Shown in pieces: positions 12,799 to 49,304 of a DNA stretch of 64,000 bases. The stretch is from Amaricoccus macauensis. GTDB lineage: Bacteria > Pseudomonadota > Alphaproteobacteria > Rhodobacterales > Rhodobacteraceae. The stretch covers positions 682,001-746,000 of the forward strand of contig NZ_JACHFM010000002.1 in assembly GCF_014201905.1 (NCBI RefSeq), written 5' to 3'. The notes under the pieces were generated by a model that saw nothing but the letters and a program-made list of their open reading frames with translations, did not search any database and was not told the origin of the DNA. A program made the translations under genes and the position numbers. Within the stretch, counting starts at the first letter, position 1, and the number at the start of each line of letters is the position of its first letter.

Positions 12799-15700
12799 AT
12801 GACAGCCGTGCGCAGCTTCGAGACGCCACGCGAGGACGGCCTCGGCCTTCGGCGCATCGAAAGCGGGTCGGGGGTGAGGGCGGCGCTCCTGCCAAACGGC
12901 TGCATCTTCGGGATCGAACACCGCAGCGGGACCGGCCGGACCCTCATTACTCAGATCGAAGGCTCGGAACTCGACGGCGGCATTGGCCGGTTGTTCCTCC
13001 GGCTTGGATCGCCGGGCGACCGGCAGGTCATCGAGGCGGTCGGGTCGGAAGCGCGCGTCCAGGTCGCTGTCGGGGACGACCGCTTCATCTGGGAGGGCGA
13101 GGGCGCCGGCGTCCGGCACCGGGTAACCCTCTGGCTGCATCCCGAGGAACGGCTCTGGCTCTGGCACGTCGAGGCGACGAACACCCGTGCAGAGCCTTTC
13201 GCCTGCGACGCGACTCTGGTGCAGGACATCGGCATCGGTGGCCGCGGCTTCATCATGAGCAACGAGGCCTACGCCTCGCAGTACATCGACCACCACCCGG
13301 CCCGGCATCCCGCCGCCGGGTGGGTGGTGATGAGCCGGCAGAACCTGGCGCAGGGTGGTGCCTACCCGTGGGTGGCGCACGGCTGCCGCGAGGGGGGCGC
13401 TTCCTTCGCGACTGACGCGCGCCAGCTCCTCGGACCGGAGTACCGCGATGCCGGACGCATCGACCCGGAGCAGGACCTGCCCGGCGCCCGCCTGCAGCAC
13501 GAGGTGGCCTGCCCGATGATCCGCTCCGCGGCCGTGACACTCGCGCCCGGCGAGACCGCGGTCTGGAGCTTCTTCGGGATCTTCGACCCTGACCACCGGG
13601 CGGCATCGGGAGATACCGACCTCGGGCGGATCGATGCGGCGCTGGCCGCTCTCGACGCTTTCGAGCCCCGTGAGATGCCCCTGACCGCCCCGGCCCGCAG
13701 TCTGTTGCAGGACGCAGCACCACTCGCGGGTCAGCCGCTCACCGCCGACGCGATCGACGCCCGCTATCCCGCGCGCACGGCAGAGGAGCGCGACGGCAGC
13801 CGGCTCCTGTCGTTCTTCCTCGCCGAGGGCGCGCTCAACCGCCACGTGGTGCTGCGCGAGAAGGAACGCCCGCTGCCGCGCCGGCATGGGGCGATCGTGC
13901 GCACCGGGCAGGGGATGCTGCTCGACGAGACCACCATGTGCACGACGGTCTGGATGCACGGGGTCTTCGGCTCGCTGCTCTCGGTCGGCAACACGTCCTT
14001 CCACCGGCTGTTCTCCGCCTCGCGTGATCCCTACAACATCACCCGCTCGGGTGGCCTGCGCCTCCTCATCGAGACCGAAGGCGGCTGGCGGCTCCTCGCC
14101 GAGCCGTCGGTTTTCGAGATCGGCCTCTCGGACTGCCGCTGGGTCTATGTGCTCGACGACCGGACCGTGACGGTCGAGGTGGTGGCCTCTGGCGATGATC
14201 CGGCGCTGCAATGGCGGCTCGCGGTCGAGGGCACTCCCTGCCGCTTCCTCGTCTCCGGCGGGATCGTGCTCGGCGAGCGCGAACTCGACAGCTCCGGTCG
14301 CGTCGAGATCGACGCCGGCCGCCAGCGGATCGCCTTCCGGCCGGATCCGGCCGGGCTCTGGGGCAAGACCTACCCCGATGCGGTCTACCACCTCGTCACG
14401 GCGACGCCGGATGCGGTGGAGGCGATCGGCGGCGACGAGTTGCTCTTTGCCGACGGGACCCGGCGCGGCGGCGGCTTCGTGGCGCTGCGCACCCGGCCGA
14501 CCACAGCGCTCGAATTCTCCGTCGTCGGCGTCCTCGCCGATCCTGAGGGGGCCGCGCGACTCGCGGACCGGTATGCCGCCGGGGTGCCGTTGGCGGACGG
14601 TCTCGCCTCTGCCGCGCGCTACTGGACCCACGTCACCCGCGGATTGCGGCTCCGTGGCGGTGCGAACGCCGAGGCGGTCGACACGTTCTTCCCGTGGGTC
14701 GCGCAGAACGCCATGATCCACCTCACCGTGCCGCACGGGCTCGAACAATCCGGCGGCGCCGCCTGGGGCACCCGCGACGTCTGTCAGGGGCCGGTCGAGT
14801 TCCTGCTGGCGCTCGATCACGATGGCCCGGTCCGCGAGATCATCCGCACCGTCTTCGCCCAGCAGTTCGAGGCCCGCGGCGACTGGCCGCAGTGGTTCAT
14901 GCTCGAACCCTACGGCCGGATCCGCGACCGCCACAGCCACGGCGACGTCATCATCTGGCCGCTGAAGGCGCTCTGCGACTACATCGAGGCAACGGGCGAC
15001 GTGACGCTTCTCGACGAGGCAGTGGCCTGGCGGAACGACGAGGACCTGACCGCGACGACGCGGCATGATCCGATCTCGGCGCACGTGGAAAAGCTCCTCG
15101 CCACCGTGCGCGACCGCTTCATTCCCGACACCCACCTCATTCGCTACGGCGAAGGCGACTGGAACGACTCGCTCCAGCCGGCCGACCCGAACATGCGCGA
15201 CTGGATGGTGTCGAGCCGGACGGTGGCGCTGCTCTTCCAGCAGCTCGAACGCTATGCGGCAGTCCTCGCGCGGGCCGGCCGCGGCGGCGACGACCTCGCG
15301 GCGCTGGCCGAGGCGATCCGCACCGACTTCGACCGCTGGCTGGTGCGCGACGGCACCGTTGCGGGCTATGCGCTCTTCGAGCCGGGCGCGGCAGAGCCTG
15401 AGCTGCTGCTGCACCCGAGCGACAGGCGGACGGGGCTCCACTACTCGCTTCTGCCGATGACGCAAGGCATCGTGTCCGGGCTCTTCGACGCGGAGGCGGC
15501 GCTGCACCACCAGCGTCTCGTCGCCGGGCACCTGACGTTTCCCGACGGGATCCGGCTCATGGACAAGCCGGTTGCCTACCACGGTGGGCCGGAGCACATC
15601 TTCCGCCGGGCAGAATCTGCGGCGTTCTTCGGGCGCGAGATCGGCCTGCTCTACATCCACGCCCACCTGCGCCACGGCGAGGCGCTGGCAGCCCTCGGTG

Positions 15701-16068
15701 AGGCGGAAGGCGTCTGGCAGGTGCTGGCGGCGGCCAACCCCGTCGTCGTGGCCGACCGGGTGGCAAACGCCGCGCGCCGGCAGCGCAATGCCTACTTCAG
15801 TTCCAGCGACGCCGCATTCCCCGATCGCTACAGCGCCAGCGCCGACTGGCAGCTTGCCCGCTTGGGCGAGATCGCGGCGGACGGCGGCTGGCGGATCTAC
15901 TCGAGCGGGCCGGGGCTCTTCACCAATCTCTTTCTCTGCCACGCCTTCGGCCTGCGCCGTCGGCCGGACGGCCGCAGGGCGGCGCCCGTGCTGCCGGCCG
16001 GCATGGGGCCGGTGACGCTCGACTGGGAGATCGACGGCCGCCCCGAGACGTGGGTGCTCGGGGCCTGA
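12799..16068 (+). CDS. GH94 1,2-beta-oligoglucan phosphorylase-like enzyme
   Basis: A 1089-residue cytoplasmic enzyme without a signal peptide or membrane segment. The C-terminal (alpha/alpha)6-barrel part shows GH94 marks: HGLEQSGGAAWGTRDVCQGPVEFL, GDWPQWFM, HGDVIIWPLKALCDY and GEGDWNDSLQPADP (D787 is in the GDWND block that carries the family's general-acid Asp). Length near 1100 and the NDSLQPADP variant are what I recall for 1,2-beta-oligoglucan phosphorylases (SOGP), not for cellobiose phosphorylases (about 800). It lacks the GT84 and membrane parts of cyclic glucan synthases. Expected reaction: phosphorolysis of beta-1,2-gluco-oligosaccharides to glucose-1-phosphate. ATG 12799 follows GGGAGAG. 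The gene converges on the GH144-like gene 16 bases away. Confidence 0.85.
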   Translation: MTAVRSFETPREDGLGLRRIESGSGVRAALLPNGCIFGIEHRSGTGRTLITQIEGSELDGGIGRLFLRLGSPGDRQVIEAVGSEARVQVAVGDDRFIWEGEGAGVRHRVTLWLHPEERLWLWHVEATNTRAEPFACDATLVQDIGIGGRGFIMSNEAYASQYIDHHPARHPAAGWVVMSRQNLAQGGAYPWVAHGCREGGASFATDARQLLGPEYRDAGRIDPEQDLPGARLQHEVACPMIRSAAVTLAPGETAVWSFFGIFDPDHRAASGDTDLGRIDAALAALDAFEPREMPLTAPARSLLQDAAPLAGQPLTADAIDARYPARTAEERDGSRLLSFFLAEGALNRHVVLREKERPLPRRHGAIVRTGQGMLLDETTMCTTVWMHGVFGSLLSVGNTSFHRLFSASRDPYNITRSGGLRLLIETEGGWRLLAEPSVFEIGLSDCRWVYVLDDRTVTVEVVASGDDPALQWRLAVEGTPCRFLVSGGIVLGERELDSSGRVEIDAGRQRIAFRPDPAGLWGKTYPDAVYHLVTATPDAVEAIGGDELLFADGTRRGGGFVALRTRPTTALEFSVVGVLADPEGAARLADRYAAGVPLADGLASAARYWTHVTRGLRLRGGANAEAVDTFFPWVAQNAMIHLTVPHGLEQSGGAAWGTRDVCQGPVEFLLALDHDGPVREIIRTVFAQQFEARGDWPQWFMLEPYGRIRDRHSHGDVIIWPLKALCDYIEATGDVTLLDEAVAWRNDEDLTATTRHDPISAHVEKLLATVRDRFIPDTHLIRYGEGDWNDSLQPADPNMRDWMVSSRTVALLFQQLERYAAVLARAGRGGDDLAALAEAIRTDFDRWLVRDGTVAGYALFEPGAAEPELLLHPSDRRTGLHYSLLPMTQGIVSGLFDAEAALHHQRLVAGHLTFPDGIRLMDKPVAYHGGPEHIFRRAESAAFFGREIGLLYIHAHLRHGEALAALGEAEGVWQVLAAANPVVVADRVANAARRQRNAYFSSSDAAFPDRYSASADWQLARLGEIAADGGWRIYSSGPGLFTNLFLCHAFGLRRRPDGRRAAPVLPAGMGPVTLDWEIDGRPETWVLGA

Positions 16069-16084
16069 CGCGCCGGGTGGCCGG

Positions 16085-17380
16085 TCAGACCATCGGCACC
16101 GGGTCGAGGTGCGGGCTCGAGAACCCGAGCCGGCGCAGGCCGACGGAGATCTCCGGGCAGCTCATGAACAGCCGCCAGAGCAGGCCGCTCCGGGCGTTCT
16201 CGATCATCACGACGATCGGCCCCTGGTCGATCGCGAGATGCGAGTCGGCGTACCAGTCGGCGGTTTCGCTGAAGGCGTCGATGAAGCCCAGTTCGCGCCA
16301 GAGCCGGTCGCCGAGATCGCCGTGGAAATGCCGCAGTGCCGCCATCGACGCCTCCGGCGCGTAGGGAAAGGCCGAGAGCGCGGCGGTCGGCGTGATGACG
16401 CCGCAATCGTTCGTCGGCGAGTGCGCATCATAGCCGTGCACGCTGTCACTCGCGGTCAGGCCCCAGCAGTCGGGGCCGTAGCCGACAAAGCCCTTCGGGT
16501 TCGAGATGCAGTAGGTCCGGTTCACCTCGGTGTGGGCGACGTTCTGCGCCCAGTAGTCGGCGTAGCGATCGCTCAGGCCCCGCGGGTCGAGGCCGAGGAA
16601 GGAGTACTGCGACAGGAACAGCGGGCCGCCGCCCACCGGACCGAGCGGCAGGGTGATGCCCTCGAACGTGCGCCCGCTCAGGAAGTCCCGCCCGTCCGCC
16701 CAACCGCGGTGGTAGACCTCGGGCGAGACGGCATAGCTCGGCGACGACGCGGCGAGAACGTAGGTGATGAGACACTCGTTCCAGCCCCGGATCTCGTGGT
16801 TCATGCTCCAGCCGTTGTTCGGGCTCCAGTGCCAGGTCAGCACGTTGCGCCCGTCGCGGGTGTGCCAGTCCCATTCGGCCTCGCGCCACATCCAGTCGAT
16901 CGCCGAGCGGAGCCGGGACTCCTCCGGGTCGGCACCGTCGAAGAACTGACGCGCCGTCAGAAGGCCGGCGAGGAGGAACGACGTCTCGACGAGATCGCTG
17001 CCATCGTCCTTGCGGCTGAAGGGAATGGTCTTGCCGGTGTCACCGTTCAGAAAGTGCGGCCAGATGCCGTGGTAGCTGTCCGCCTTGAGCAGGAAGCGTG
17101 CCATGGTCCAGAGCCGGTCCACGGCGGCGGCGCGGTCGATCCAGCCGCGCGCGACGCCGACGATGATCGCCATGATGCCGAAGCCCGAGCCGCCGGTCGT
17201 TACCGCCTCGAGGCCATACTTTGCCGTGACGTTGCTGCGCTCGCGGGCGAGGCCGCAGACGGGATGGGCGAAGTCCCAGAAGTAGCGCAGGGTCTGCCGC
17301 TGAACCAGATCGAGCAGGGCCTCGTCGTCCGGCGAGGGGCGCCATCCAGAGGCGGACGGCAGGTTGGTGTCGGGCAGCAA
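16085..17380 (-). CDS. GH144-like endo-beta-1,2-glucanase (glycoamylase fold)
   Basis: A 431-residue protein of the Pfam 'Glycoamylase' group that includes GH144 endo-beta-1,2-glucanases. Seen motifs are LRYFWDFAHPVCGLARERSN, GGSGFGIMAIIVGV, FSRKDDGSDLVETSFLLAGLLTARQ, WHWSPNNGWSMNHEIRGWNECLITYVLAASS, GGPLFLSQYSFLGLDPRG and YGPDCWGLTASDSV. The start is inferred as TTG 17380 because GGAGG sits 7 bases before it; an in-frame ATG at 17425 has no visible ribosome site. With either start no signal peptide is present, unlike characterised secreted SGL enzymes, so it is probably cytoplasmic. It lies 59 bases after the upstream ABC transporter gene on the same strand and converges with the GH94 gene. 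Confidence 0.82.
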   Translation of the reverse strand: MLPDTNLPSASGWRPSPDDEALLDLVQRQTLRYFWDFAHPVCGLARERSNVTAKYGLEAVTTGGSGFGIMAIIVGVARGWIDRAAAVDRLWTMARFLLKADSYHGIWPHFLNGDTGKTIPFSRKDDGSDLVETSFLLAGLLTARQFFDGADPEESRLRSAIDWMWREAEWDWHTRDGRNVLTWHWSPNNGWSMNHEIRGWNECLITYVLAASSPSYAVSPEVYHRGWADGRDFLSGRTFEGITLPLGPVGGGPLFLSQYSFLGLDPRGLSDRYADYWAQNVAHTEVNRTYCISNPKGFVGYGPDCWGLTASDSVHGYDAHSPTNDCGVITPTAALSAFPYAPEASMAALRHFHGDLGDRLWRELGFIDAFSETADWYADSHLAIDQGPIVVMIENARSGLLWRLFMSCPEISVGLRRLGFSSPHLDPVPMV

Positions 17381-17439
17381 TGGTATTCCTCCGGTGCCGG
17401 CGCGCGGTCCGTATCGTAGCCGCATTCGCCACGGCCGGG

Positions 17440-19407
17440 CTACTGCAGGCGGAGCGTCGGGGCAATCGGCGCGAGGAGATCGACCATCGGCTCGTCCCGC
17501 GGTTCCGGCTCCGGCTCGTCGGCGACCGCGCTTGCGAGCGCGAGCGACGGAGTCAGGACCAGCGTCTGGTTGTAGAATGGCCGCCCCGAGGGATCGACGG
17601 GCGCGGCACTGGTGTGCAGGACCGACAGGATCACCGCCCCGGGCAGGCGCTCGTCGAGGGCCAGGTGGAAATCCGCCGCCGCGTTCACGTCGAGGGCGGA
17701 GGTGGATTCGTCGAGCAACAGGACGTCGGGCTCCTGCAACAGCATCCGCGCCAGCACAAGCCGCTGCTTCTGGCCGCCCGAGAGGACGTCGCGCCACGGG
17801 CGGCCGCCGTGCAGGGTCTCGTCGATGTCGCGGATGAAGCCGCCGAGGCCGGCGCGCGACAGCACTTCCGCGACGGCGAGCCGGTCATAGGCTTCCGTCA
17901 CGCGCCGGGGATAGGCGACGAGCTGGCCGAGGCTGAGATGATCGGGCAGGTCGGGCTCCTGCGCCGCGAGGAACACCCGCGCGCCGGCCGCCACGCCGAT
18001 CTGGCCGCTGCCATAGGGCCAGAGACCGGCGACAGCCTTCAGAAGCGAGCTCTTGCCACAGCCGCTCGGCCCGCTCACATGCAGCCGGTCGCCCCGGCGC
18101 AGCACGAGACGCGGCAGCCGCACGAAGGGCAGCGCGGTATGGCCGCGATGGCAAAGCTCGAGATCCTCGAGCACCAGCATCGGCCCGGCGATGAGGTCGC
18201 GCCGCCGGAAGTCGCTCCGGCCGGTCTCGGCATAGAAGCGGTCGCGGTCACGCACCCGCTCGATTGCCGCGGCGAGGGCGGTGAGGCGCGCGGCATTGGC
18301 GCGCAGCACGGCGATTTCGGTCATCACGTTGGTGAACCACGAGGCGCCGGTGATGAGCTCGGTCGTGAGCTCCGAGGCGGCGACGTAGGAGCGGAAGCTC
18401 ATGTTGCCCGCCATGAACGCCGGCAGCGCCGGCACATAGGCGAGCAGGCGCTGGGAGAGGAAGTTCGTCACTTCGGTGAACATCAGCATGGTCGCCACCC
18501 AGATGTTCTGGTGGCGCCAGGCCTTGTCGATCGAGCTGTAGAGCCGCGAATTGGTGTCGCGCTGGACGAACTGGCCCCGGGACGCGGCGACGAGGGCGAC
18601 GCGGTTCAGCATTGCCGCGAGCTCGCCGCGCCAGGCACCGTCGCTTTCCTGCCGCTCGAGGGTGCGCCGCTGCACGCCGCGCCCGACCCGCCACGCAAAG
18701 AATGTCACGATCGGCATGTAGAGTGCGACGAGTGCGAGCGCGAGAATCGCGGTGCCGAGATCGCCCGGCACGAGGTTGACGTATCCTGCGAGGGTCGGCC
18801 CGACGACTGCCGTGAGGCCCTGGTTCGCCGCCGCTCCCAGCCGGTCGAGGAAATCGACGGGCTGACTGCGGGCGACGAGCGCGATGGTGACGAACCACAC
18901 CGATGCGACCGCGCCGATGAAGCCCATCACGAGGCCGATGAGCCCGCCGAACAGATGGTCCGTGCAGATGTCGAGGCGCTGGTCGATCGAGTCCGGCAGC
19001 CGGCCGTCATTGCCGGCGGAGCCACGGTCGCTCATCAGGTCGAGGGCGATGCGCTGGTCGGAGAGGATCTCGGCATCGAAGCGGGCGATCAGCCAGCGCC
19101 GTGCGCGCCGGTGCAGGGTGGTCGAGACGAGGTGGCGCAGGGCGAGGCCCGTCGAGCGGGAGAACGCGATGGCGAAGTAGCTAAGGCCTGAGAGAAGAAT
19201 CACCCGCGCCGGATCGACGGCGTCCGGCCGATGGAACTCGGCCAGCGAGGCGATGAAATCGGCACTGGCGGTTGCGGTCCAGACGGCGGCCTTGCTGACG
19301 AGAAGCGTGATCGCGAGGACCACCGTGGTGAGCGCCCAGGCCTCGCGCCAGCGCTCCGAGAACCAGTAGGCCGAGACGAGGCCCCAAAAGGACGTGCAAC
19401 GCTTCAT
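17440..19407 (-). CDS. SbmA/BacA-like ABC half-transporter with canonical ATPase domain
   Basis: A 655-residue membrane/ATPase fusion of the ABC_membrane_2 (YddA/SbmA/BacA-like) type. The N-terminus FWGLVSAYWFSERWREAW resembles the family's first amphipathic block; about six hydrophobic segments span residues 22-350. The NBD has Walker A GPSGCGKSS (446-454), signature LSGGQKQRL (542-550), Walker B VLLLDES (562-568) and an H-switch His at 598. The C-terminus is a Pro/Glu-rich tail. ATG 19407 starts at MKRCTSFW; a purine-rich GGGGG lies 8-12 bases upstream. It is co-directional with the GH144-like gene and divergent from the GH3 gene. Substrate unknown; a beta-1,2-glucan oligosaccharide is inferred from context. 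Confidence 0.82.
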   Translation of the reverse strand: MKRCTSFWGLVSAYWFSERWREAWALTTVVLAITLLVSKAAVWTATASADFIASLAEFHRPDAVDPARVILLSGLSYFAIAFSRSTGLALRHLVSTTLHRRARRWLIARFDAEILSDQRIALDLMSDRGSAGNDGRLPDSIDQRLDICTDHLFGGLIGLVMGFIGAVASVWFVTIALVARSQPVDFLDRLGAAANQGLTAVVGPTLAGYVNLVPGDLGTAILALALVALYMPIVTFFAWRVGRGVQRRTLERQESDGAWRGELAAMLNRVALVAASRGQFVQRDTNSRLYSSIDKAWRHQNIWVATMLMFTEVTNFLSQRLLAYVPALPAFMAGNMSFRSYVAASELTTELITGASWFTNVMTEIAVLRANAARLTALAAAIERVRDRDRFYAETGRSDFRRRDLIAGPMLVLEDLELCHRGHTALPFVRLPRLVLRRGDRLHVSGPSGCGKSSLLKAVAGLWPYGSGQIGVAAGARVFLAAQEPDLPDHLSLGQLVAYPRRVTEAYDRLAVAEVLSRAGLGGFIRDIDETLHGGRPWRDVLSGGQKQRLVLARMLLQEPDVLLLDESTSALDVNAAADFHLALDERLPGAVILSVLHTSAAPVDPSGRPFYNQTLVLTPSLALASAVADEPEPEPRDEPMVDLLAPIAPTLRLQ

Positions 19408-19622
19408 CCCGGACGCCCCCGACTGGTGATCAGGGAGTCGCTTCCTGCCATGATGATCTGACCGTCGTTCATTTCCCCTTTTCTCCGAGGGGCCACCCCG
19501 CGAGAATCCTACGATCATGCGCGGGATCTTGCCGATAGCCATGTTAACTCTTGGTAAACCGATTGATAGGAATTCGTAAAAATCACCGGCTGAACGCCGC
19601 AGACACCGGGGAAAGTGTTGCA
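19408..19622. promoter_or_regulatory. divergent intergenic region of the glucan locus
   Basis: This 215-base gap between the divergent ABC and GH3 genes is the only AT-richer stretch nearby (about 19530-19590). It must hold promoters for both units. I see TTGATA at 19563-19568 and short A/T runs but no clear -35/-10 pair at standard spacing, and only a weak LacI-like half-symmetric sequence near 19555. No dedicated regulator gene is present in the locus. Confidence 0.4.
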
Positions 19623-21863
19623 ATGAGGAAACGCCTTGCGCGACCAGCACACGTCGGAGAACGTGCCTGGACCATCGCCTGCGGCATGACGTTGCGTCAG
19701 CTCGCGGGCCAGCTCACGTCGATCGACGCCGGCCGCTATCAGCAGCTCACCGGGGAGGATATCGCCCTCGCGGTCGCGCGCGGCGACATCGGCGGCACCG
19801 GGCTCGTCGGCGACCGGCTGAAGGAACTTCAGGAAGCCGCGATCGCCCACGGCCACCCGCCGCTGCTCGTCAAGGACGACGGCCGGCGCGGCTTCTATCA
19901 GATCGCGCCGTTCCCGCTCTACTGCTTCGACATGGAGACGGTGCGGCGGGCGCATGAGGAGGCGGCAGAGGACGCGCGCCTCGCCGGGGTGACGCTGATC
20001 CGGATCACCTGCGACTACGCCTTCTCCCAGAAGCAGGGGCGCACGCAGGAAGGCGGCATCGTCTCCGACCCGGTCTTCATGAGTGATGTGACACGGGCGA
20101 GCACCGAAGGGCTTTCGGGCACCGGACGGGTGGCGGTGATCCTGAAGCACCTCGGGCCCTACCAGTACACCGACGGGCCGGACTACACGGCGTTGCCGAT
20201 CGAATGCGTCGAGTTCCTCGAGACCGTCCTCAGGCGCTACGACGGCGGCTTCGAGGCGGGTGCGCACGGCGTGATGATGAGCTTCGTCGCGCTGAACGGC
20301 GTGCCGGCCCACGCCGATCCGTTCCTGCGCGACATCACCAAGGAGCGCGCCGGGCCGGGGGCGATCATCGAGTCCGACTACGACGGGATCTACGAGCTCT
20401 ATGGCGGCTTCGGCTATGCCGCGAGCCCGAAGGAAGCCGCGTTGCGGGGCTTCCGCGATGGCGGGGTCCACATCGATCTCTGCTCGCTGCTCTTCCTCGA
20501 ACACCTGCCCGCCCTCGTCGAGGAAGGCCGGGTGAGCGAGGAAGACCTCATGGTCCGGGCCGCGGAGATGCTTGAGCTGAAGGACCGCATCGGCGTTCTC
20601 GACAACCCCATGCTCGGCACCGAGCCTGACCGCGAGGCGCGCCTGCTCGATCGCCCGGCGCCGGCCTCGCGCGCGCTTGCCCGCGCGTCCGTCGTCATGC
20701 TGCGCCCGAAGGAGCCCGACCCCGCGATCCTGCCGATCCCGGCCGATGCAAGGGTCTGCGTGCTCGGGCCACTCGCCGAGCAGAACCCGGAGGACTGGCT
20801 CGGCGCCTATTCGAGTCACGGCAACCGTCATCTGGAGATCGTGCGAACCCCGCTTGATGGCCTCCGGCGGTACTGGCCGGACGCGACCTACGCGCGTGGC
20901 TGCGACTACGACGGGGCGGAGGACGAGATCCCGGCCGCGGCGGAGCTGGCGCGGGGCGCGAGCCACGTCGTCCTCTTCCTCGGGGAGCGCTGGCAGTGGA
21001 GCGGCGAGTCCGCCGCCCTCGCCGATCCGCGTCTGCCGTATGTGCAGCGCCGGCTGGTGGACGCGGTCCGCGCGGCGAACCCGGACGCGAAGCTCGTGGT
21101 CTTCGTGACCGCCGGGCGCGCCCTGCACATCCCGGGCGAGATCGAGGCGGCGGCGGATGCGCTGTTCTGGACCGCGCAGACCGGCACCTTCGCCGGCGAC
21201 GCGATCGCCGACATCCTCGCCGGCGTGGCCGATCCCACCGGCAGGCTTTCGCACGGGCTTCCCATGGCCGACGGCATCAACTCCGGCTTCGACACGCGCG
21301 TGGCGCGCACCGACCGCCCGGCGGTGCCGGTGGTGCCGGGCTCGGCTTTGCGCCGGCAGCGTCACCACTGGTGCGCCTACTATCTGGGCCTCGGGGCGCG
21401 CTGGCCGGCGAATTACACCTTCGGCGAGGGCTACTCCTATACCCGCTTCGCGCTCTCGGACTGGACGCTCGACGCCGGGCGGCTGTCGGTGGCGGAGGGC
21501 ACGGTCCTGACCGCCAGCGTGCGGGTGACGAACACCGGCGCACGGCCGGGGACCGAGACGATCCACCTCTACCATCAGGACATGGTCTGCGAGGAGCGGG
21601 TACCGCGCCTGCTGGAGCGCCTCGGCCACCGGCAGATCCACCTTGCGCCGGGCGAGTCGGCGCAGGTGAGCTTCACCGTCACGCCGGAGATGCTGGCGAA
21701 ATACGGGCGTGACTGGCAGGCGGGCCGCAAGGTCTGGCCCGACCTCGACCCGGCGGCCAACCCGGACCGCCTCTTCATCGTGCAGAACGAGGGTCAGGCG
21801 CTCGACGCGATCGAGCGCTTCGGCGACGCGCCCTGCGTGCTGCCGTTCATACTGGAGCCGTGA
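19623..21863 (+). CDS. divergent GH3-family beta-glucosidase-like enzyme
   Basis: A 746-residue protein with the GH3 order: (alpha/beta)8 domain, alpha/beta sandwich (VCVLGPLAEQNPEDWLGAYSSHGN, GASHVVLFLGERWQWSGESA) and a C-terminal FnIII domain (VTASVRVTNTGARPGTETIHLY). The nucleophile block is IIESDYDGIYELY with D252. The N-terminal substrate-binding region is atypical: where GH3 enzymes usually have DxxHG, this one has VKDDGRRGFYQIAPFPLYCFD. No signal peptide is seen, so it is probably cytoplasmic and would hydrolyse short beta-glucosides such as sophorose. ATG 19623 follows GGGGAAAG; the frame is open to 19551. It is first in a unit with the esterase and ABC genes. Confidence 0.83.
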   Translation: MRKRLARPAHVGERAWTIACGMTLRQLAGQLTSIDAGRYQQLTGEDIALAVARGDIGGTGLVGDRLKELQEAAIAHGHPPLLVKDDGRRGFYQIAPFPLYCFDMETVRRAHEEAAEDARLAGVTLIRITCDYAFSQKQGRTQEGGIVSDPVFMSDVTRASTEGLSGTGRVAVILKHLGPYQYTDGPDYTALPIECVEFLETVLRRYDGGFEAGAHGVMMSFVALNGVPAHADPFLRDITKERAGPGAIIESDYDGIYELYGGFGYAASPKEAALRGFRDGGVHIDLCSLLFLEHLPALVEEGRVSEEDLMVRAAEMLELKDRIGVLDNPMLGTEPDREARLLDRPAPASRALARASVVMLRPKEPDPAILPIPADARVCVLGPLAEQNPEDWLGAYSSHGNRHLEIVRTPLDGLRRYWPDATYARGCDYDGAEDEIPAAAELARGASHVVLFLGERWQWSGESAALADPRLPYVQRRLVDAVRAANPDAKLVVFVTAGRALHIPGEIEAAADALFWTAQTGTFAGDAIADILAGVADPTGRLSHGLPMADGINSGFDTRVARTDRPAVPVVPGSALRRQRHHWCAYYLGLGARWPANYTFGEGYSYTRFALSDWTLDAGRLSVAEGTVLTASVRVTNTGARPGTETIHLYHQDMVCEERVPRLLERLGHRQIHLAPGESAQVSFTVTPEMLAKYGRDWQAGRKVWPDLDPAANPDRLFIVQNEGQALDAIERFGDAPCVLPFILEP

Positions 21864-21864
21864 G

Positions 21865-22587
21865 ATGACGACCTGGGTCTTTCCGCTCGCCGGCCAGAGC
21901 AACATGGTGAGCCGGGCCGACGCCGACGGCTCGGCGCCCTGGCCCGCGGGGGTGCGCTTCGTCACCCAGTCGGGCGAACTCGTCTCTCCCACGGCCGAGA
22001 TCGCCACGCCCGAGGGCAACGGCGGGCCGTTCCTGATCGCCAAGTGCTTTGCGACCGACTTCCTCGCCAGTCACCCGGGTGACAGCATCGTCTTCGTCCC
22101 GGGCGCGGTCGGCGGGACCAGCTTCTGGAACCACCGCTGGAATCCGGGCGACGACCTCTATGACAACCTCGTCGAGCTGACGCGCGCGACCCTCGCCGAG
22201 CATCCCGACTGGCGCCTGCGCGCGCTGCTCTTTCAGGGGTTCGAGACCGACGCCTCGAACCAGATGCTGGCGACGACCTTTCACCGCGCCATCGACCGGT
22301 TCATCCGGGCGATCCGTGCGGATCTCGGCGCCGATCTGCCCATCGTCTTCGGGGAGCTTCCACCAGCCTTCGTGGGGGAGGACCCGGTGCGGGCGGCGAT
22401 CCGCGACGAGGTGCGATTCGCGGCGGCGCGCTGGCCGTGGACCGCAGTGGTCTCGAGCCGGGAGCCAACGCTCGCGGAAGATGACGGCCTGCACTATACC
22501 ACTGCCGGATTGCTTGCCCTCGGTCGCCGCTACGCGGCTGGTCTGGCTGCCGCCGAGGCGAATCGCGTGCCAGCAGCCGGAGTATAG
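21865..22587 (+). CDS. SASA/SGNH-type carbohydrate O-acylesterase
   Basis: A 240-residue protein of the sialate O-acetylesterase-like (SASA, CE6-related) group. Block I is LAGQSNM with Ser12. Block III is FQGFETDASN, in place of the usual QGExDA. Block V is DGLHYTTAG with D207 and H210, completing a Ser-His-Asp set. No signal peptide is present. It starts one base after the GH3 stop, so it is co-translated with it. Inferred role: removing acetyl or succinyl groups from imported beta-1,2-gluco-oligosaccharides, since natural cyclic glucans are often acylated. The exact substrate is not shown by the sequence. Confidence 0.78.
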   Translation: MTTWVFPLAGQSNMVSRADADGSAPWPAGVRFVTQSGELVSPTAEIATPEGNGGPFLIAKCFATDFLASHPGDSIVFVPGAVGGTSFWNHRWNPGDDLYDNLVELTRATLAEHPDWRLRALLFQGFETDASNQMLATTFHRAIDRFIRAIRADLGADLPIVFGELPPAFVGEDPVRAAIRDEVRFAAARWPWTAVVSSREPTLAEDDGLHYTTAGLLALGRRYAAGLAAAEANRVPAAGV

Positions 22588-22627
22588 CCCCGCGCCTGCT
22601 TCCCCGATTGGCCTCCGGGGAAGCTTC

Positions 22628-24409
22628 ATGGCATGTGAAGGGATGGCAAGTCTCACCGAGCACTCCCGGCTTCCCGGCCCGACGAAGCGGCTGCGCAGTC
22701 TGGCGCGCGAGATCTACAACACGCCCGGACGGACGGCTCTCCTCTTTCTCGCCGCCGGACTCTTCATCGTCATCGTGCTGACCGCCGTGATGCAGGTGAA
22801 GCTCAACGCCTGGAACCAGCCGTTCTACGATGCGATCGAGCGGCGGAACTGGAATGAGTTCCTGCACCAGCTCGGGGTCTTCTTCCTGCTCGCCGCCGGC
22901 CTTCTGGTGCTGAACGTGGCGCAGACCGCCGCGAACCAGCTCATCCGCGTCCGGCTGCGTGATCTCGCCACCCGCGATCTCATCGGCAACTGGATGACCG
23001 AGAGGCGGGCCACGCGCATCACCCGCGCCGGTGAGATCGGCGTCAATCCCGACCAGCGCATCCAGTCCGATGCCCAGACCCTGACGGAATACACAACCGA
23101 CCTCGGCATCGGCCTGCTGCAATCGACCATCCTGCTCGTGAGTTTCGTCGGCGTGCTCTGGATATTGTCGAAGGACGTGGTGATCCCGATCGGCGATCGC
23201 GATCTGGCGATTCCCGGATACATGGTCTGGGCGGCGCTGCTCTATGCCGCTTCCGGCTCGTTCATCTCCTGGCGCATCGGCCGGCCGCTGGTTCGTCTCG
23301 GCACGGATCGCTATGCGCGCGAGGCGGAGTTCCGGGCCGCGGTGGTGCAGGCATCGCAGCGCGCCGAGGGCATCGCGCTCAGCAACGGCGAAGCCGGCAG
23401 TCGCCGCGTGCTGGTCGCGAGCCTCGAGTCCCTCGTCGCCGTGCTGCGACAGATCGCCTTCGCGCGGGCGCGCCTCACCTGGGTGACGGCGAGCTATGGC
23501 TGGGTGGGGCTGGTCTTTCCGATCATCGTCGCGGCGCCGGGCTACTTCGCGGGCCGGCTGACGTTCGGTGAGCTGATGATGGTGGTCGGCGCCTTCAACC
23601 AGGTGCAGTCATCCCTGCGCTGGTTCGTGGACAACACCGGCACCATTGCCGACTGGCGGGCGACGCTCTTCCGGGTCATGTCGTTCCGCGAGGCGCTGCT
23701 CGGGCTCGACGCCGTCGAAACCGTGGATGGCGTCATCGCGCGCGAGGAGAGTGCCAACGATCGACTCGTGCTCGACGGGGTCAATGTCTGCACCCGACAC
23801 GGCACGGTGGCGCTCTCGGACGAACTGGTCGAGGTCAGTCCCGGCGAGCGGGTGCTTCTTCTCGGCCAGCCCGGATCGGGGCGGACCTCGTTCTTTCTGG
23901 CAATCGCCGGGCTCTGGGCCCACGGCTCGGGCCGGATTGCCATTCCGCCGGATGCGGAAATTGCCTACCTCACCCAGCGTCCCTTCCTGCCGGCGGGCAC
24001 GCTGCGCGAGGCGCTGGCGGGAGCGGGCTCCGGCGCAACGGATGACGAGGGTCTCCGCGCCGCGCTGGCGCGGGTCGGGCTCGACCGGCTCGCCGACGCC
24101 CTCGACCGGGCCGGGCGTTGGGATCTGGAGCTTGCGACCTCCGATCAGGAGCGCCTCGGCTATGCCCGGCTCATCCTCGCGAAGCCGAGATGGCTCGTCT
24201 CGGATGAGGGCCTCGATCCGACCGACGATCCGAACCGTGCCCTGATCCTGTCGATCCTGTCGCAGGAACTGGCGGAAACCACGATCGTCAACATCTCGCA
24301 GCGTCGCGAGCCGACTGGCTTCTATACTCGCGTCGTCGAGCTCGTCTCCAGTGACCCAGGTGACCGCGTGGTCACCGCATGTGCCGCGCAGATGAACGAA
24401 AGTCGCTGA
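22628..24409 (+). CDS. SbmA/BacA-like ABC half-transporter with degenerate ATPase domain
   Basis: A 593-residue YddA/SbmA/BacA-type fusion. The membrane part (about 35-340) has family blocks LNAWNQPFYDAIERRNWNEF, NPDQRIQSD and RVEGIALSNGE-like RAEGIALSNGE. The NBD departs from consensus: Walker A GQPGSGRTS has Arg419 instead of Lys, the signature is ATSDQERL (503-510) instead of LSxGEQQRL, and the H-switch position is Gln558 (NISQRRE). Walker B LVSDE keeps D526 and E527. ATG 22628 is chosen for GGGGAAG upstream; ATG 22643 is possible. It closes the GH3-esterase unit and would pair naturally with the canonical half-transporter encoded at 17440-19407. Confidence 0.82.
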   Translation: MACEGMASLTEHSRLPGPTKRLRSLAREIYNTPGRTALLFLAAGLFIVIVLTAVMQVKLNAWNQPFYDAIERRNWNEFLHQLGVFFLLAAGLLVLNVAQTAANQLIRVRLRDLATRDLIGNWMTERRATRITRAGEIGVNPDQRIQSDAQTLTEYTTDLGIGLLQSTILLVSFVGVLWILSKDVVIPIGDRDLAIPGYMVWAALLYAASGSFISWRIGRPLVRLGTDRYAREAEFRAAVVQASQRAEGIALSNGEAGSRRVLVASLESLVAVLRQIAFARARLTWVTASYGWVGLVFPIIVAAPGYFAGRLTFGELMMVVGAFNQVQSSLRWFVDNTGTIADWRATLFRVMSFREALLGLDAVETVDGVIAREESANDRLVLDGVNVCTRHGTVALSDELVEVSPGERVLLLGQPGSGRTSFFLAIAGLWAHGSGRIAIPPDAEIAYLTQRPFLPAGTLREALAGAGSGATDDEGLRAALARVGLDRLADALDRAGRWDLELATSDQERLGYARLILAKPRWLVSDEGLDPTDDPNRALILSILSQELAETTIVNISQRREPTGFYTRVVELVSSDPGDRVVTACAAQMNESR

Positions 24410-24967: not shown

Positions 24968-25033
24968 AGCGGCTGGCGCCGCCTTCGGTCGGTGTGCGAC
25001 AAGGCCGGAGCGCATGACCGCGGGGGGCGAGGC

Positions 25034-26029
25034 ATGAAGAAGCGACAATTCGGCCGCACCGAAGACGGTCGCGGCGTGGACGAGGTGGTCCTCGAGAGCA
25101 GCGAGGCCGCGATTTCGGTCCTGAGCTTCGGCGCCACCATGCGGGACTGGCGTGTCGATGGCGAGCGGGGCAGCCTGCCGATGATCCTCGGCTTCCCCAC
25201 GCTTGAGGGCTATCTCCACCGCGCGAAGTCGCACGGGGCAGTCGTCGGACGGGTGGCGAACCGCACGGCCGGTGCCACCTTCGAGCTTGGCGGACAAAGG
25301 TACGAGCTGACCGCCAATGACGGGCGCAACCACCTGCATGGCGGCAGTATCGGGCTCGGGCGCCGGATTTGGGACATGGAGGTCGAGAGCGCCTCGAACA
25401 CGGTCTATCTCGCCTATGCGAGCCCGGACGGTGAAGAGGGCTATCCCGGCGCGGTGGAATTCCGCGTCAGCCTGAAGCTCGACGGGCCGCGGCTCATCTG
25501 CGAGATGACCGGGCTGCCGGACCGCCCGACGCCGATCAGTCTCGCGAACCACAACTATTACAACCTCGGCGGCGCCGGGACGGTGAAGGACCATGTGCTC
25601 CGGATCGACGCGGACCGCTACACGCCGGTCGATGCGGAGCAGATCCCGACGGGCGAGATCCGCGAAGTCGAAGGGACACCGCTTGATTTCACCGAGGAGC
25701 ATGAGGTCGGCGACCGCAAGCTCGACCACAATCTGGTGTTTCGCGCTGACCGGGACCGCAAGCGGCCGGCGGTGCGGATGCTCTGCCCGCGGACCGGAAG
25801 GAAGCTCGAACTCTGGAGCGACGAGCCGGGCTTGCAGGTCTTCGACACGTTCAACATGACGATCGAGGGCACCGGCCTCGACGGTCAGGTCTACGGTCCA
25901 TACGCCGGGATCTGTCTCGAGGCGCAGCATTTCCCCGACACCCTGCACCAGCCGGAGTGGCCGGGAATCCTCTCGGCGCCGCATGCACCGTACTTCCAGC
26001 GGCTCGTGGTGGAGATTGGCCAAGAGTAG
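25034..26029 (+). CDS. galM: aldose 1-epimerase (GalM/YihR-like mutarotase)
   Basis: A 331-residue mutarotase that interconverts alpha and beta anomers of free sugars. Catalytic blocks seen are GRVANRTAGATFELGG, NHLHGGSIGLGRRIWD (His), LANHNYYNLGG (His) and GICLEAQHFPD (Glu acting as base). GDRKLDHNLVF and PGLQVFDTFNM are also family marks. GGGGGCGAGG precedes ATG 25034. It could act on glucose released from glucans. Together with the kinase and AGE genes next door it also recalls the sulfoquinovose mutarotase YihR, but substrate cannot be told from sequence alone. Confidence 0.92.
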   Translation: MKKRQFGRTEDGRGVDEVVLESSEAAISVLSFGATMRDWRVDGERGSLPMILGFPTLEGYLHRAKSHGAVVGRVANRTAGATFELGGQRYELTANDGRNHLHGGSIGLGRRIWDMEVESASNTVYLAYASPDGEEGYPGAVEFRVSLKLDGPRLICEMTGLPDRPTPISLANHNYYNLGGAGTVKDHVLRIDADRYTPVDAEQIPTGEIREVEGTPLDFTEEHEVGDRKLDHNLVFRADRDRKRPAVRMLCPRTGRKLELWSDEPGLQVFDTFNMTIEGTGLDGQVYGPYAGICLEAQHFPDTLHQPEWPGILSAPHAPYFQRLVVEIGQE

Positions 26030-26151
26030 GACCTACGCCCGGGTCTAAAAGTGCTAAAATGCAACAAATAAGGCCATGCCTCCCAGCGGAGGCGGCCGAA
26101 GCCGGACGGGCACGTGTCGGGTTTTTTGCCTCGGGGCATTGGAGGACGGTC

Positions 26152-27048
26152 ATGGGCGCAACGGTGGTCTGCTGCGGGTCGGCGACTTGCGACGTGCTTT
26201 ATCAGGTCGAGAGGTTGCCGCTCGGACCGGGAAAAATCCTGCCGAAAGCCATGCTCGAGGTCGCTCATGGCATGGCAACGAGCGCCGCGACCGCGGTGGC
26301 GCGCCTCGGCGGACGCGCGCGGCTGATCGCGAGGATCGGCGACGATCACCGCGGCCGGTGCTTTCTGCAGGAGATCGGCGAGGCTGGTGTCGACTGCACG
26401 ATGGTGCGCTCCGTCCTCGGGGTGTCGTCGCCGGTGTCCGCGGTGCTGATCGATGCCGAGGGCGAAAGGGTGGTCGTGCCCTGGTACAGTCCCGCACTCG
26501 GGAGCGACACCGACTGGATCCCGCTCGACGCGGTGGCGGCGGCGGATGCGGCGCTCGTGGATGTTCGCTGGCCCGAAGGCGCGGCAGCCGTGCTCGACGC
26601 CGCCCGATTGGCGGGGAAGCCGGCGGTGCTTGACGGCGACGTGGGGCCTCCGGACGTGGTTCTCGATCTCGCCGCGCGGGCAAGCCATGCGATCTTTTCC
26701 GAGCCAGCGGCGCTGCTCTGCGTCGGCGGTGCCTCGATCGATGAAGCGCTGCGCGCACTCGGGGCGCGGCTTCCCGGTTTCGTCGCGGTGACGGCGGGCG
26801 CGGAGGGCTGCTACTGGCTGGCGGGGGACGAGGTGCGCCAGCTCCGACCGCCGGCGATCGAAGCGGTCGACACCCTCGCCGCCGGCGATGTCTTCCACGG
26901 CGCCTTTGCGCTGGCCCTCGCAGAGGGCAAGGGCGAGGTGACGGCGCTTGCATTCGCCAATGTCGCGGCGTCGCTGAAATGTCGCCACTTCGGTGGCCGC
27001 CTCGGCGCGCCGGAGCGGGCCGAGGTCGAGGCGCTTCTCGTCAGCTGA
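26152..27048 (+). CDS. PfkB-family sugar kinase, YihV-like
   Basis: A 298-residue ribokinase-fold kinase. Family features are the N-terminal GSATCDVLYQVERLP, ATSAATAVARLGGRARLIARIGDD and the C-terminal anion-hole/catalytic block DTLAAGDVFHGA with D246 as base (a variant of DTTGAGD). The length and the stretch LVDVRWPEGA...AVLDGDVGPPD...FSEP closely parallel the E. coli 6-deoxy-6-sulfofructose kinase YihV as I remember it. No aldolase (YihT) or sulfoquinovosidase is adjacent, so sulfofructose is only one option; fructose or another ketose is equally possible. GGAGG precedes ATG 26152. The 3' end overlaps the convergent isomerase gene by 8 bases. Confidence 0.85.
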   Translation: MGATVVCCGSATCDVLYQVERLPLGPGKILPKAMLEVAHGMATSAATAVARLGGRARLIARIGDDHRGRCFLQEIGEAGVDCTMVRSVLGVSSPVSAVLIDAEGERVVVPWYSPALGSDTDWIPLDAVAAADAALVDVRWPEGAAAVLDAARLAGKPAVLDGDVGPPDVVLDLAARASHAIFSEPAALLCVGGASIDEALRALGARLPGFVAVTAGAEGCYWLAGDEVRQLRPPAIEAVDTLAAGDVFHGAFALALAEGKGEVTALAFANVAASLKCRHFGGRLGAPERAEVEALLVS

Positions 27049-28252
27049 GCGCGAGCCCGCGGGTGATGAGGCCGTGCGTGATCGAGCCGGTCGCAGGCAC
27101 CAGCGGGATCAGGCACGCCTGCAGCGCGTGGTAGAGATCGGGCTTGCCGGCAAACAGCGGATTGGTGCCGTCGTTGTACGGCTGGGGATACCAGCCGCCG
27201 CTCGCCCGGTCGATGAGCTCGGTGGCGACGAAATCCCAGATCCGCCGATACCAGATCTCATAGTCCGCCGACGGGCGGAGTGCGTTCAGGAACGCGCTCG
27301 CGCCGATCCCCTCGGCCGCGGGCCACCAGAGCCGGTTCTTCAGGCGCGGCGCCCCGGTCCAGTCGAGGGTGTAGACAAAGCCCCCGCGCGGATCCCAGGC
27401 GTCCGTCGTCGCCCGCAGGAACAGCGCCTCGGCCGCGTCCGGCAGCCAGTCGAGCCGCTCCTCGCCGAGCTGCCAGAGCTGGAGCAGGAGGCGGGTCCAT
27501 TCGAGCGAGTGACCGGGCGTGGTGCCATAGGGCCGGAAGACGTCGCCGTTCGAGTAGTCGGGGTCCGGGCGCCAGTCGGTGTCGAAGTGTTCAAGCACCC
27601 GCCATCCGTTCTCGGCTGCGGTCATGGCGATGACGCGGGTGGCGATGCGCTCGGCCATGGCGAGATATTCCGCGTCCCGGGTGGCCTCGAAGGCCGCCAT
27701 CAGCGCCTCGGTCATGTGCATGTTGGAGTTCTGGCCGCGATAGCCGCTCACCGGGCTCCAGTCGGCGGCAAACTCCTCGGCGACGGCTCCGTGGGTTTCC
27801 TCCCAGAACCGCTGACGGATCACCTCCGAGACGTCGGCGAGCAGCCGGTCGGCGTCCGGGTGGCCCGCGACCTTCGCCGAGGACGCAGCGAGAAGCACGA
27901 AGGCGTGGCCGTAAGCCTGCTTCGATGCGTCGCCGCCCTCGGTCGCATCCCAGCGATAGCCGCCGCGGGCGTCGTCCCGGTGGGCCGACCAGAGATAGCT
28001 CATACCGTGATCGATGAACCGCTCCGCGCCCGGCCGGCCGAGCAGGCGGGCAATGGCAAAGCAGTGGACGAGCCGCGTCACGGTGTGGAGCTGCCGCTGG
28101 TCGCTGTCGAGCGGTCGACCGCGATCGTCGAGTGTGAAGAAGCCACCCTTCGGATCGATGCTGCAGGGCTCGAAGAATTCGAAGAGCGCGTTCGTCTGAT
28201 CGAGGAGCCAGAGGCGGTGGTAGGGCAGGGTCGTCCAGATGAGCGAACTCAT
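27041..28252 (-). CDS. AGE-family aldose-ketose isomerase (YihS/mannose isomerase-like)
   Basis: A 403-residue (alpha/alpha)6-barrel protein of the N-acylglucosamine 2-epimerase family. Typical blocks are DASKQAYGHAFVLLAASSAKVAGHP, YRGQNSNMHMTEALMAAFEAT, EHFDTDWRPDPDY, FRPYGTTPGHSLEWTRLLLQL, DAWDPRGGFVYTLDWTG and KPDLYHALQACLIP, with the histidines used for proton transfer (EHF, PGH, YHA). Overall it resembles YihS/mannose isomerase more than GlcNAc epimerase, because it lacks a nucleotide-binding insert. It likely interconverts an aldose and a ketose, and the convergent YihV-like kinase could phosphorylate the ketose. AAGGA precedes the ATG. Confidence 0.87.
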   Translation of the reverse strand: MSSLIWTTLPYHRLWLLDQTNALFEFFEPCSIDPKGGFFTLDDRGRPLDSDQRQLHTVTRLVHCFAIARLLGRPGAERFIDHGMSYLWSAHRDDARGGYRWDATEGGDASKQAYGHAFVLLAASSAKVAGHPDADRLLADVSEVIRQRFWEETHGAVAEEFAADWSPVSGYRGQNSNMHMTEALMAAFEATRDAEYLAMAERIATRVIAMTAAENGWRVLEHFDTDWRPDPDYSNGDVFRPYGTTPGHSLEWTRLLLQLWQLGEERLDWLPDAAEALFLRATTDAWDPRGGFVYTLDWTGAPRLKNRLWWPAAEGIGASAFLNALRPSADYEIWYRRIWDFVATELIDRASGGWYPQPYNDGTNPLFAGKPDLYHALQACLIPLVPATGSITHGLITRGLALS

Positions 28253-28377
28253 GGGGGGTCCTTCGAAAAGCGGCGTCCGGGCTGGACCATGTCCCGAAGC
28301 GCGGCGCGCGTCGAGGGGTTGGTTGCTCCGCCGCTCGGGCGCGTGCTAGCGAGGGGAAAACCTTTGGGAGGAACAAG

Positions 28378-40180: not shown

Positions 40181-40210
40181 GGTGCGCTTTCGGTCTGGGG
40201 GACCGCGCAC

Positions 40211-44526: not shown

Positions 44527-45210
44527 TTACTCTGCCGGACCCTTCCGATCGAGTCGAGCCAGCTCGCGCAGCCACTTGCGGTGATGCCGCCACGCCCAGC
44601 CCCCGGTCACGGTGCCCCGCGTCATGGCGCGCAGCGTCCCGCGCGTCCAGATCGCTGCATAGACATGCAGGATCCACGTCAGGATGATCAGGACCGCCGC
44701 GATCGCGTGCACCATCGTCGCGATCCGTCGCACTTGAATCGTCACCAGCCCATCGAAGTAGCGCTGCCACATCATGAAGCCGGTGACGATCAGCACGATG
44801 ATGAGCACCGTCATCGCCCAGAACACGAACTTCTGGCCGGCATTGTACTTGCCGAGCTCGGGCAGATCCTCTTCCTTGCCGGCGACCACTTCCCTGACGT
44901 TCTCGATCCAGACCGCGTCCTCGCGGCGCGGCAGGTTCAGGCGAACCATCCGGAAGAACAGTCCGAGGAAGCTCACGAACAGCACGACGCCGATCCACGG
45001 GTGGACCACCCGGGCCGTCTGGCCGCCGCCGAAGAGGTCGGTCAGGAAGTAGAGCCACGGGTGGAAGAACCCGAGACCCGAGATCAGCAGCAGGATGAGG
45101 CACGCGGCCGTCAGCCAGTGATTTGCTCGCGTGAACGGGCCGTAGCGGTGCACGATGACGGGCAACCGGCTCTCGATGCGGTCACCGGACTGGGAATAGA
45201 CGCGTTCCAT
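44527..45210 (-). CDS. fdoI: formate dehydrogenase-N/O gamma subunit (cytochrome b556)
   Basis: A 227-residue membrane diheme cytochrome b that takes electrons from the beta subunit to quinone. Four transmembrane helices carry the histidines: YGPFTRANHWLTAACLILLLISGL, VHPWIGVVLFVSFLGLFFRM, KFVFWAMTVLIIVLIVTGFMMW and IATMVHAIAAVLIILTWILHVYAAI. The start ATG overlaps the beta-subunit stop by one base (TGATG). fdhE follows after 58 bases. Confidence 0.95.
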   Translation of the reverse strand: MERVYSQSGDRIESRLPVIVHRYGPFTRANHWLTAACLILLLISGLGFFHPWLYFLTDLFGGGQTARVVHPWIGVVLFVSFLGLFFRMVRLNLPRREDAVWIENVREVVAGKEEDLPELGKYNAGQKFVFWAMTVLIIVLIVTGFMMWQRYFDGLVTIQVRRIATMVHAIAAVLIILTWILHVYAAIWTRGTLRAMTRGTVTGGWAWRHHRKWLRELARLDRKGPAE

Positions 45211-49258: not shown

Positions 49259-49304
49259 TGGCGCCTCCGTTGCCTGTCTCTTGCGAGATGGGTTCACGGA
49301 ATTC

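Follow-up and report, generated by a model that had tools for sequence, protein, structure and literature searches.

A predicted β-1,2-glucan import and degradation locus with a GH144 endo-glucanase and Rv1819c/SbmA-like half-transporters in Amaricoccus macauensis and other Alphaproteobacteria

Genes of the locus and their predicted products

We analysed a stretch of 64,000 nucleotides from the 4.8-Mb genome of Amaricoccus macauensis (contig NZ_JACHFM010000002.1, positions 682,001 to 746,000; hereafter the window), in which a preliminary description made from the DNA alone had placed a compact locus for β-1,2-glucan degradation and transport. The six open reading frames (ORFs) of that locus were found contiguous at 12799-24409, and their Pfam families agree with the kinds of genes that had been proposed (Table 1; the start codons are our choice). 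By its genes, the locus belongs to a system widespread in Alphaproteobacteria that combines a predicted cytoplasmic endo-β-1,2-glucanase with Rv1819c/SbmA-like transporters, and whose function we infer from gene content. The arrangement of the ORFs suggests two short divergent operons, ABC1-GH144 reading leftward with a gap of 14 bp and GH3-SASA-ABC2 reading rightward with gaps of 1 bp and 40 bp; the 215-bp gap between ABC1 and GH3 is a probable two-way promoter region, and the SOGP gene is convergent to the GH144 gene.

Table 1. Genes and intergenic region of the locus (positions in the window)
Feature	Position	Strand	Basis
SOGP (GH94 1,2-β-oligoglucan phosphorylase), predicted	12799..16068	+	Pfam SOGP_N/SOGP_2nd; PDB 5h3z; LpSOGP residues conserved
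GH144 endo-β-1,2-glucanase (SGL), predicted, 446 aa	16085..17425	-	PF10091; 5gzh; CpSGL residues
ABC1 half-transporter, Rv1819c-like, ATPase motifs intact, 655 aa	17440..19407	-	ABC_tran; family profile against 6tqe
Putative two-way promoter region, 215 bp, divergent ABC1/GH3	19408..19622	.	gene coordinates
GH3 β-glucosidase, predicted, 746 aa	19623..21863	+	Pfam GH3 N and C domains; PDB relatives
SASA-family carbohydrate acetylesterase, predicted, 240 aa	21865..22587	+	PF03629 1e-26
ABC2 SbmA/YddA-like half-transporter, degenerate ATPase domain, 593 aa	22628..24409	+	ABC_membrane_2, SbmA_BacA

The GH94 protein carries the domains SOGP_N (4e-61) and SOGP_2nd (2e-45) and has the length of about 1100 residues that goes with them in the SOGP group; the general GH94 catalytic model scored 19.8 bits, below its cut-off of 27. 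Its sole match in the PDB at E≤0.001 was 5h3z (2.4e-178), which we take to be LpSOGP. The residue numbers of PMC5309861 fit the 5h3z chain with an offset of one (chain = paper + 1), and R630, D631, W758, D760, E917, Y922 and H924, which that paper gives as catalytic or glucose 1-phosphate-binding residues with sugar and phosphate contacts, are all kept in the window's protein (the alignment ends before S1005). On these domains and residues, the GH94 protein is a predicted 1,2-β-oligoglucan phosphorylase. The GH144 protein matched PF10091 at 1e-76. First among its PDB matches was 4gl3, labelled 'putative glucoamylase', and second the endo-β-1,2-glucanase 5gzh (3e-153), the only one of the best matches named by function; 5z06, the structure of BDI_3064, which we take to be an exo-acting GH144 enzyme, was a weaker match than 5gzh. 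All four functional residues of CpSGL given in PMC12102758 (D135, D139, E142 and the general acid E211) are kept, and with these conserved catalytic residues the protein is a predicted endo-β-1,2-glucanase. The assignment of both proteins to β-1,2-glucan families in the preliminary description was therefore borne out. The GH3 protein (Glyco_hydro_3_C 3e-24, Glyco_hydro_3 2e-7) had as its closest PDB relatives 9urf (6e-56), Lin1840 (4zoa, 8e-55) and 5xxl (4e-54); Lin1840 is described as a β-glucosidase preferring sophorose (PMC4757417).

Signal-peptide-like stretches were sought by hydropathy (window of 11 residues, threshold 2.0) over the 60 residues preceding the domain. None was flagged in the SOGP, GH144, GH3 and SASA proteins of the locus, in agreement with the earlier statement that the enzymes have no signal peptide. 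Among the relatives presented below, a hydrophobic N-terminal stretch was flagged in 0 of 65 GH144, 0 of 14 SOGP and 0 of 26 GH15 proteins and in two of 49 GH3 proteins (L045 and L169); one SOGP, one GH15 and two GH3 proteins, whose match starts too late, fell outside the test. The test is only rough, since in a positive control a near-identical measure flagged two of the three OpgG proteins of the window's genome. Divergent GH144-like proteins were likewise unflagged (0 of 14), so the missing signal peptide is not peculiar to the transporter-linked GH144. As had also been noted, Pfam revealed no binding-protein importer, TonB receptor or regulator among the six genes of the locus and their four neighbours to 29.4 kb, and the substrate-binding protein with separate permeases that marks CUT1 and CUT2 importers was not among these ten proteins.

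Family and ATPase state of the two half-transporters

ABC2 matched ABC_membrane_2 (2e-30) and SbmA_BacA (PF05992, 2e-25), and its best solved relative, aligned over residues 70 to 573, was 6tqe, which we take to be Rv1819c. ABC1 matched ABC_tran alone, being too distant for the Pfam membrane models; a profile of 11 ABC1-type proteins had 6tqe as its best PDB match (positions 3-599 of 625, 3e-47), and by this profile ABC1 is akin to the SbmA/BacA/Rv1819c group. The two SbmA/BacA-like half-transporters of the preliminary description can thus be recognised, ABC2 directly by Pfam and ABC1 by way of its relatives; what did not stand is their treatment as alike, the ATPase domain being intact in ABC1 and degenerate in ABC2.

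In the window, ABC1 has all its ATPase motifs (GPSGCGKSS, LSGGQ, LLLDE and the switch His), whereas in ABC2 the Walker A lysine is changed into arginine (GQPGSGRTS), the signature reads ATSDQ and the switch His is gone, the DE of Walker B being retained. Their relatives differed in a similar way. Walker A, signature, Walker B Glu and switch His were intact in 38 of 38 ABC1-type proteins, the window's included (27 from the GH144 loci examined and 11 away from GH144). Of 44 ABC2 proteins whose loci carry GH144, SOGP or both, none had all four motifs and none had the signature, while 13 had none of the four; the His was kept in four, Walker A in 14 and the Walker B DE in 23. This set includes L106 of the fragmented genome G004, whose other genes are on other contigs. 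Escherichia coli YddA scored 4/4 in the same motif test, and among 31 other ABC2-type proteins (L176_3536, a second copy (34%) in a GH144 locus, included) four were intact and 26 had lost the signature. A FastTree tree of 77 membrane-part sequences set the 70 signature-less proteins apart from YddA, SbmA, L176_3536 and the four intact proteins with a support of 0.97, several deeper and inner nodes of this tree being weak (down to 0.08). By this topology, ABC2 is part of a 70-member degenerate clade within intact YddA-like relatives. Since 26 of the 70 members are not next to GH144, the decay of the motifs tracks the pairing with glucan genes only partly. Lone ABC2-type genes with the same degenerate ATPase domain occur on Sinorhizobium meliloti pSymB and in related genomes (L113, L207, L208, L211 and L216-L221), with no GH144, GH3 or SOGP gene found near them, and at L142 (8790-12764) two ABC2-type genes in tandem, each encoding a degenerate ATPase domain, lie next to GH144, GH15 and GH3 genes.

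SbmA has a glutamate ladder described in PMC13316013 (E193, E203, E269, E276, E287 and E378). Over 46 ABC2-type rows of the alignment, E193 was matched in 31, E276 in all 46 and E287 in 45, the position of E378 held D in 35 and E in six, and equivalents of E203 and E269 were present in none. The alignment is gapped near E287 and gives YddA a Glu there, though PMC13316013 says that YddA is without it. With the ladder incomplete, proton coupling of ABC2 through the full set of SbmA glutamates is unsupported. An obligate ABC1-ABC2 heterodimer was likewise rejected as a general rule, since of the loci examined only the window and L123 have both genes in one stretch. ABC1 was in the stretch of none of the 31 ABC2 loci of the Hyphomicrobiales set described below, in G004 the two genes lie on different short contigs (L105 and L106), and in A. 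solimangrovi (G009), which has ABC2, there is no ABC1 relative apart from ABC2 itself and short shared ATPase-domain matches (best 53 bits). A heterodimer within the window is possible.

Linkage of GH144 with the transporters and with periplasmic glucan genes

The GH144 protein of the window was used as query against 394 genomes from the same family and 347 from the order to which the Aureimonas genome G785 belongs, which we take to be Hyphomicrobiales, and the neighbourhoods of the matches were fetched. Besides the window, the family set gave ten matches, nine of them full-length loci (L118-L126) and the tenth (L127) a weak one on a 3.7-kb contig. Six of the nine loci hold ABC1, one ABC2 and one both, and in the ninth (L121) ABC2 is divided between two reading frames; the identity of family ABC1 proteins to the Paracoccus reference is as low as 35% (L123, L124). 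Some GH144 match was present in 63 of the 347 Hyphomicrobiales genomes, and a window-type GH144 at 430 bits or more in 48, whose loci hold ABC1 (16), ABC2 (31), never both, and in one case neither (L170, whose genome has an ABC1-GH3 pair on another contig, L206). At the genome level, an ABC1 or ABC2 match was found in 48 of 48 GH144-positive genomes and in 27 of the 299 others, with E up to 1e-80 for ABC1 and, for ABC2, a cut of at least 444 bits set at a gap in the list (ABC2 matches at 1e-80 are more widespread, in 114 of 347 genomes). As a control we took 13 loci with 14 divergent GH144-like genes (29-42% identity), leaving out three weak matches above 100 bits and several fragments: the best ABC1/ABC2 relatives were two distant ABC2 relatives at 27% (L181 and L184), and the remaining loci gave at most MsbA-type or partial ATPase matches. 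Among plasmids, five GH144 regions of the 93 records found were examined, and the gene is accompanied by ABC2 in Methylocystis and Rhodobacter CZR27 and by ABC1 in Paracoccus aminovorans. This strong linkage in two orders supports the non-canonical, cytoplasmic handling of the glucan that had been proposed.

The other genes of the locus are less constant. GH3 occurs in 33 of the 48 Hyphomicrobiales loci and in all nine further family loci, GH15 in 18 and five, SOGP in six and none, and the SASA gene in none of these 57. These last two counts rule out the six-gene set as a conserved unit; the exact set was seen only in the window's genome, its relative G004 being on broken contigs. From the neighbourhoods compared, the conserved unit is GH144 with ABC1 or ABC2, usually accompanied by GH3 and in some loci by GH15 or SOGP. 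SOGP was also discarded as a marker of the system; of 80 SOGP loci kept from 288 confirmed relatives, several of them short contigs, six have ABC2 and three GH144, and the SOGP gene of Rhizobium johnstonii has neither in its annotated stretch. Ten ABC1-type genes away from GH144 (L196-L205) form a subgroup of 40-42% identity with intact ATPase, and seven of these ten genomes hold divergent GH144-like genes elsewhere.

Clustering the ORFs from 58 loci mainly returned shadow ORFs on the antisense strand and neighbours specific to a clade, but it also exposed an MdoG/OpgG protein, which belongs with the genes for osmoregulated periplasmic glucan (OPG). Using E. coli OpgG, OpgD, OpgH and OpgC and one locus protein as queries, we found OpgG/OpgD-like genes in nine of the 57 GH144 loci, five of the nine in the family (L118, L120, L122, L125, L126) and four of the 48 in Hyphomicrobiales (L170-L173); opgH adjoins opgG in L118 and L125. 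The five family loci are exactly those with GH15, and three of the four Hyphomicrobiales loci also carry it. The window's genome has opgG-opgH on the contig of the locus, at a distance of about 200 kb, and two more OpgG-family genes (three in total). No cyclic-glucan synthase was found in this genome, because its sole PF10091 protein is GH144; a synthase-length PF10091 protein is present in two of the 48 GH144-positive Hyphomicrobiales genomes and in none of five family genomes. The suggestion of recycling thus gains from the OPG genes next to nine related loci, and nothing from the window's own locus. The β-1,2-glucans of Cereibacter (Rhodobacter) sphaeroides are reported to be closed by a single α-1,6 bond, and such glucans to be often acylated (PMC11842490); GH15 for the α-1,6 bond and an esterase for the acyl groups would fit.

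Downstream of the locus (24992-29361) are sugar-metabolism genes, namely an aldose 1-epimerase, a PfkB kinase, an AGE-family protein (nearest model D-mannose isomerase, with a score below that model's cut-off) and a D-erythronate dehydrogenase; against the other GH144 loci, tblastn gave only weak PfkB matches for them. Farther along the window, a formate dehydrogenase large subunit gene (46169-49309, minus strand) is interrupted by a single in-frame TGA, near the iron-sulfur subunit gene (45210-46172) and selA (42244-43563), and probably encodes a selenocysteine-containing enzyme with the insertion gene nearby. The gene at 39056-40210 (minus strand) encodes a protein with a Tle1-like catalytic domain of type VI secretion system phospholipase effectors.

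Proposed function, alternatives and known systems

The locus is probably a β-1,2-glucan import-and-digest system with degradation in the cytoplasm, for recycling or scavenging; we infer its substrate, transport direction, energy source and order of steps. The substrate would be a periplasmic β-1,2-glucan, most likely OPG, the cell's own or scavenged and possibly still cyclic, which ABC1 and/or ABC2 would carry across the inner membrane; large polar solutes are what the studied members of the Rv1819c/YddA/SbmA group take up. In the cytoplasm, acetyl groups may be removed by the SASA esterase, GH144 would cleave the backbone internally, SOGP would phosphorolyse oligomers with a degree of polymerisation of at least 3, releasing glucose 1-phosphate, and sophorose would be hydrolysed to glucose by GH3. 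In relatives, GH15 would probably take off the single α-1,6-linked glucose of α-1,6-cyclised glucans. More tentatively, ABC2 may be a glucan importer in mid-transition from an ABC to a secondary transporter: an SbmA/YddA-like clade would have lost its ATPase on taking up the import of β-1,2-glucan (OPG), alternating in similar loci with the ATP-driven ABC1, and would form with the cytoplasmic GH144, GH3, GH15 and SOGP the first gene-level pathway recycling α-1,6-cyclised OPG.

Several observations weigh against import and recycling. The window's own locus has no OPG gene next to it and showed no route of entry through the outer membrane, and the window's genome has no GH15. All nine OPG-linked loci are of the ABC1 type or L170, none being an ABC2-only locus, and of the 18 Hyphomicrobiales loci that carry GH15, 15 lack an OPG gene in the fetched stretch. 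The Fisher p of 8e-40 for the genome-level linkage ignores the kinship of the genomes, and the reverse linkage is looser: among the best matches in the 347 genomes, 38 of 70 ABC2-type and 11 of 27 ABC1-type genes are not next to GH144 (32 and 16 adjoin it), so the transporters need not be glucan-specific. Finally, the plasmid-borne GH144 genes of S. mexicanum (L115) and Aminobacter (L116) have neither ABC1 nor ABC2 within about 9 kb.

Plain scavenging, in which other microbes cut the glucan outside and small β-1,2-oligomers alone enter, without any recycling of OPG, is possible, if rather doubtful. SOGP and GH3 do act on oligomers and 48 of the 57 GH144 loci have no OPG gene in the fetched stretch; yet a cytoplasmic endo-glucanase would be of little use if only short oligomers entered, and OPG genes flank the other nine. 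That ABC1 and ABC2 are peptide, antibiotic or cobalamin importers merely adjoining a glucan operon appears unlikely to us. SbmA, BacA and BclA carry peptides and Rv1819c cobalamin (PMC13316013, PMC12003926), many ABC2-type genes are away from GH144, and ten ORFs scanned near lone ABC1 or ABC2 genes, few as they are, included no glucan gene. However, one of two different transporters is near GH144 in 47 of 48 and nine of nine loci, the 13 divergent-GH144 loci have no ABC1/ABC2 relative above 27% identity, and a GH3 gene is near seven of 29 lone ABC2 genes (L210, L213, L225, L226, L232, L234, L235). Export of the glucan or a derivative, with enzymes that trim or regulate a cytoplasmic pool, is very improbable in spite of the exporter fold of the transporters and of Cgt, a known cyclic-glucan transporter that exports, since every enzyme of the locus is of a degradative family with no synthase among them, 46 of the 48 GH144-positive Hyphomicrobiales genomes and the window's genome are without a synthase-length PF10091 protein, and OpgH-type synthesis is believed to place its glucan in the periplasm unaided.

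If import and cytoplasmic digestion of β-1,2-glucan are confirmed, part of the YddA-like transporter family gains a function, SbmA/Rv1819c-type importers are shown to carry glycans, and the degenerate ATPases become natural intermediates for testing the descent of the proton-driven SbmA from a YddA-like ABC transporter, as proposed in 2026. We know of no earlier gene candidates for the turnover of OPG, which is tied to symbiosis and virulence, and the genes described here would be, to our knowledge, the first. Among the open-licence PMC papers listed by our literature searches, none had a title or opening abstract that joined GH144 or β-1,2-glucan with the SbmA/YddA/Rv1819c group. By word search, the main text of the SbmA/BclA survey PMC12003926 contains neither 'glucan' nor 'carbohydrate', that of PMC13316013 none of 'glucan', 'sugar' and 'degenerate', and that of PMC12102758 no 'transporter'.

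Unlike the Listeria innocua cluster lin1839-lin1840, the locus has Rv1819c/SbmA-like half-transporters in place of a binding-protein importer, together with a GH144 that lacks a signal peptide. We take the binding-protein ABC importer known for β-1,2-oligomers to belong to Listeria. That importer, specific for these oligomers, is reported in a review (PMC11842490), and the Listeria cluster resembles the window in having an SOGP and a GH3 β-glucosidase that act in sequence (PMC4757417). As to the Bacteroidetes/Chitinophaga GH144 systems, the window's enzyme shares the active-site residues of CpSGL. CpSGL and BDI_3064 are exported or encoded in SusCD-type loci, whereas the window's GH144 has no signal peptide and is paired with an inner-membrane transporter.

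For the transporters, both ABC2 and the ABC1 profile align with 6tqe, as expected of relatives of Rv1819c, YddA and BclA. The window's genes differ from these in being linked to glucan degradation and in the loss of ATPase motifs in ABC2. Cobalamin or peptides are the known cargo of Rv1819c and BclA, the cargo and function of YddA being given as unknown (PMC13316013). ABC2 resembles the proton-driven SbmA/BacA transporters (SLiPTs) in its PF05992 match and in that it is not expected to hydrolyse ATP normally; SLiPTs have no nucleotide-binding domain and a full glutamate ladder, whereas ABC2 retains a recognisable, degenerate nucleotide-binding domain and has no equivalents of E203 and E269. 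The cyclic-glucan exporter Cgt/NdvA/ChvA is, like the window's transporters, an ABC transporter tied to β-1,2-glucan; it belongs to a different ABC subfamily and is partnered with a cyclic-glucan synthase, whereas ABC1 and ABC2 are encoded beside enzymes predicted to degrade the glucan.

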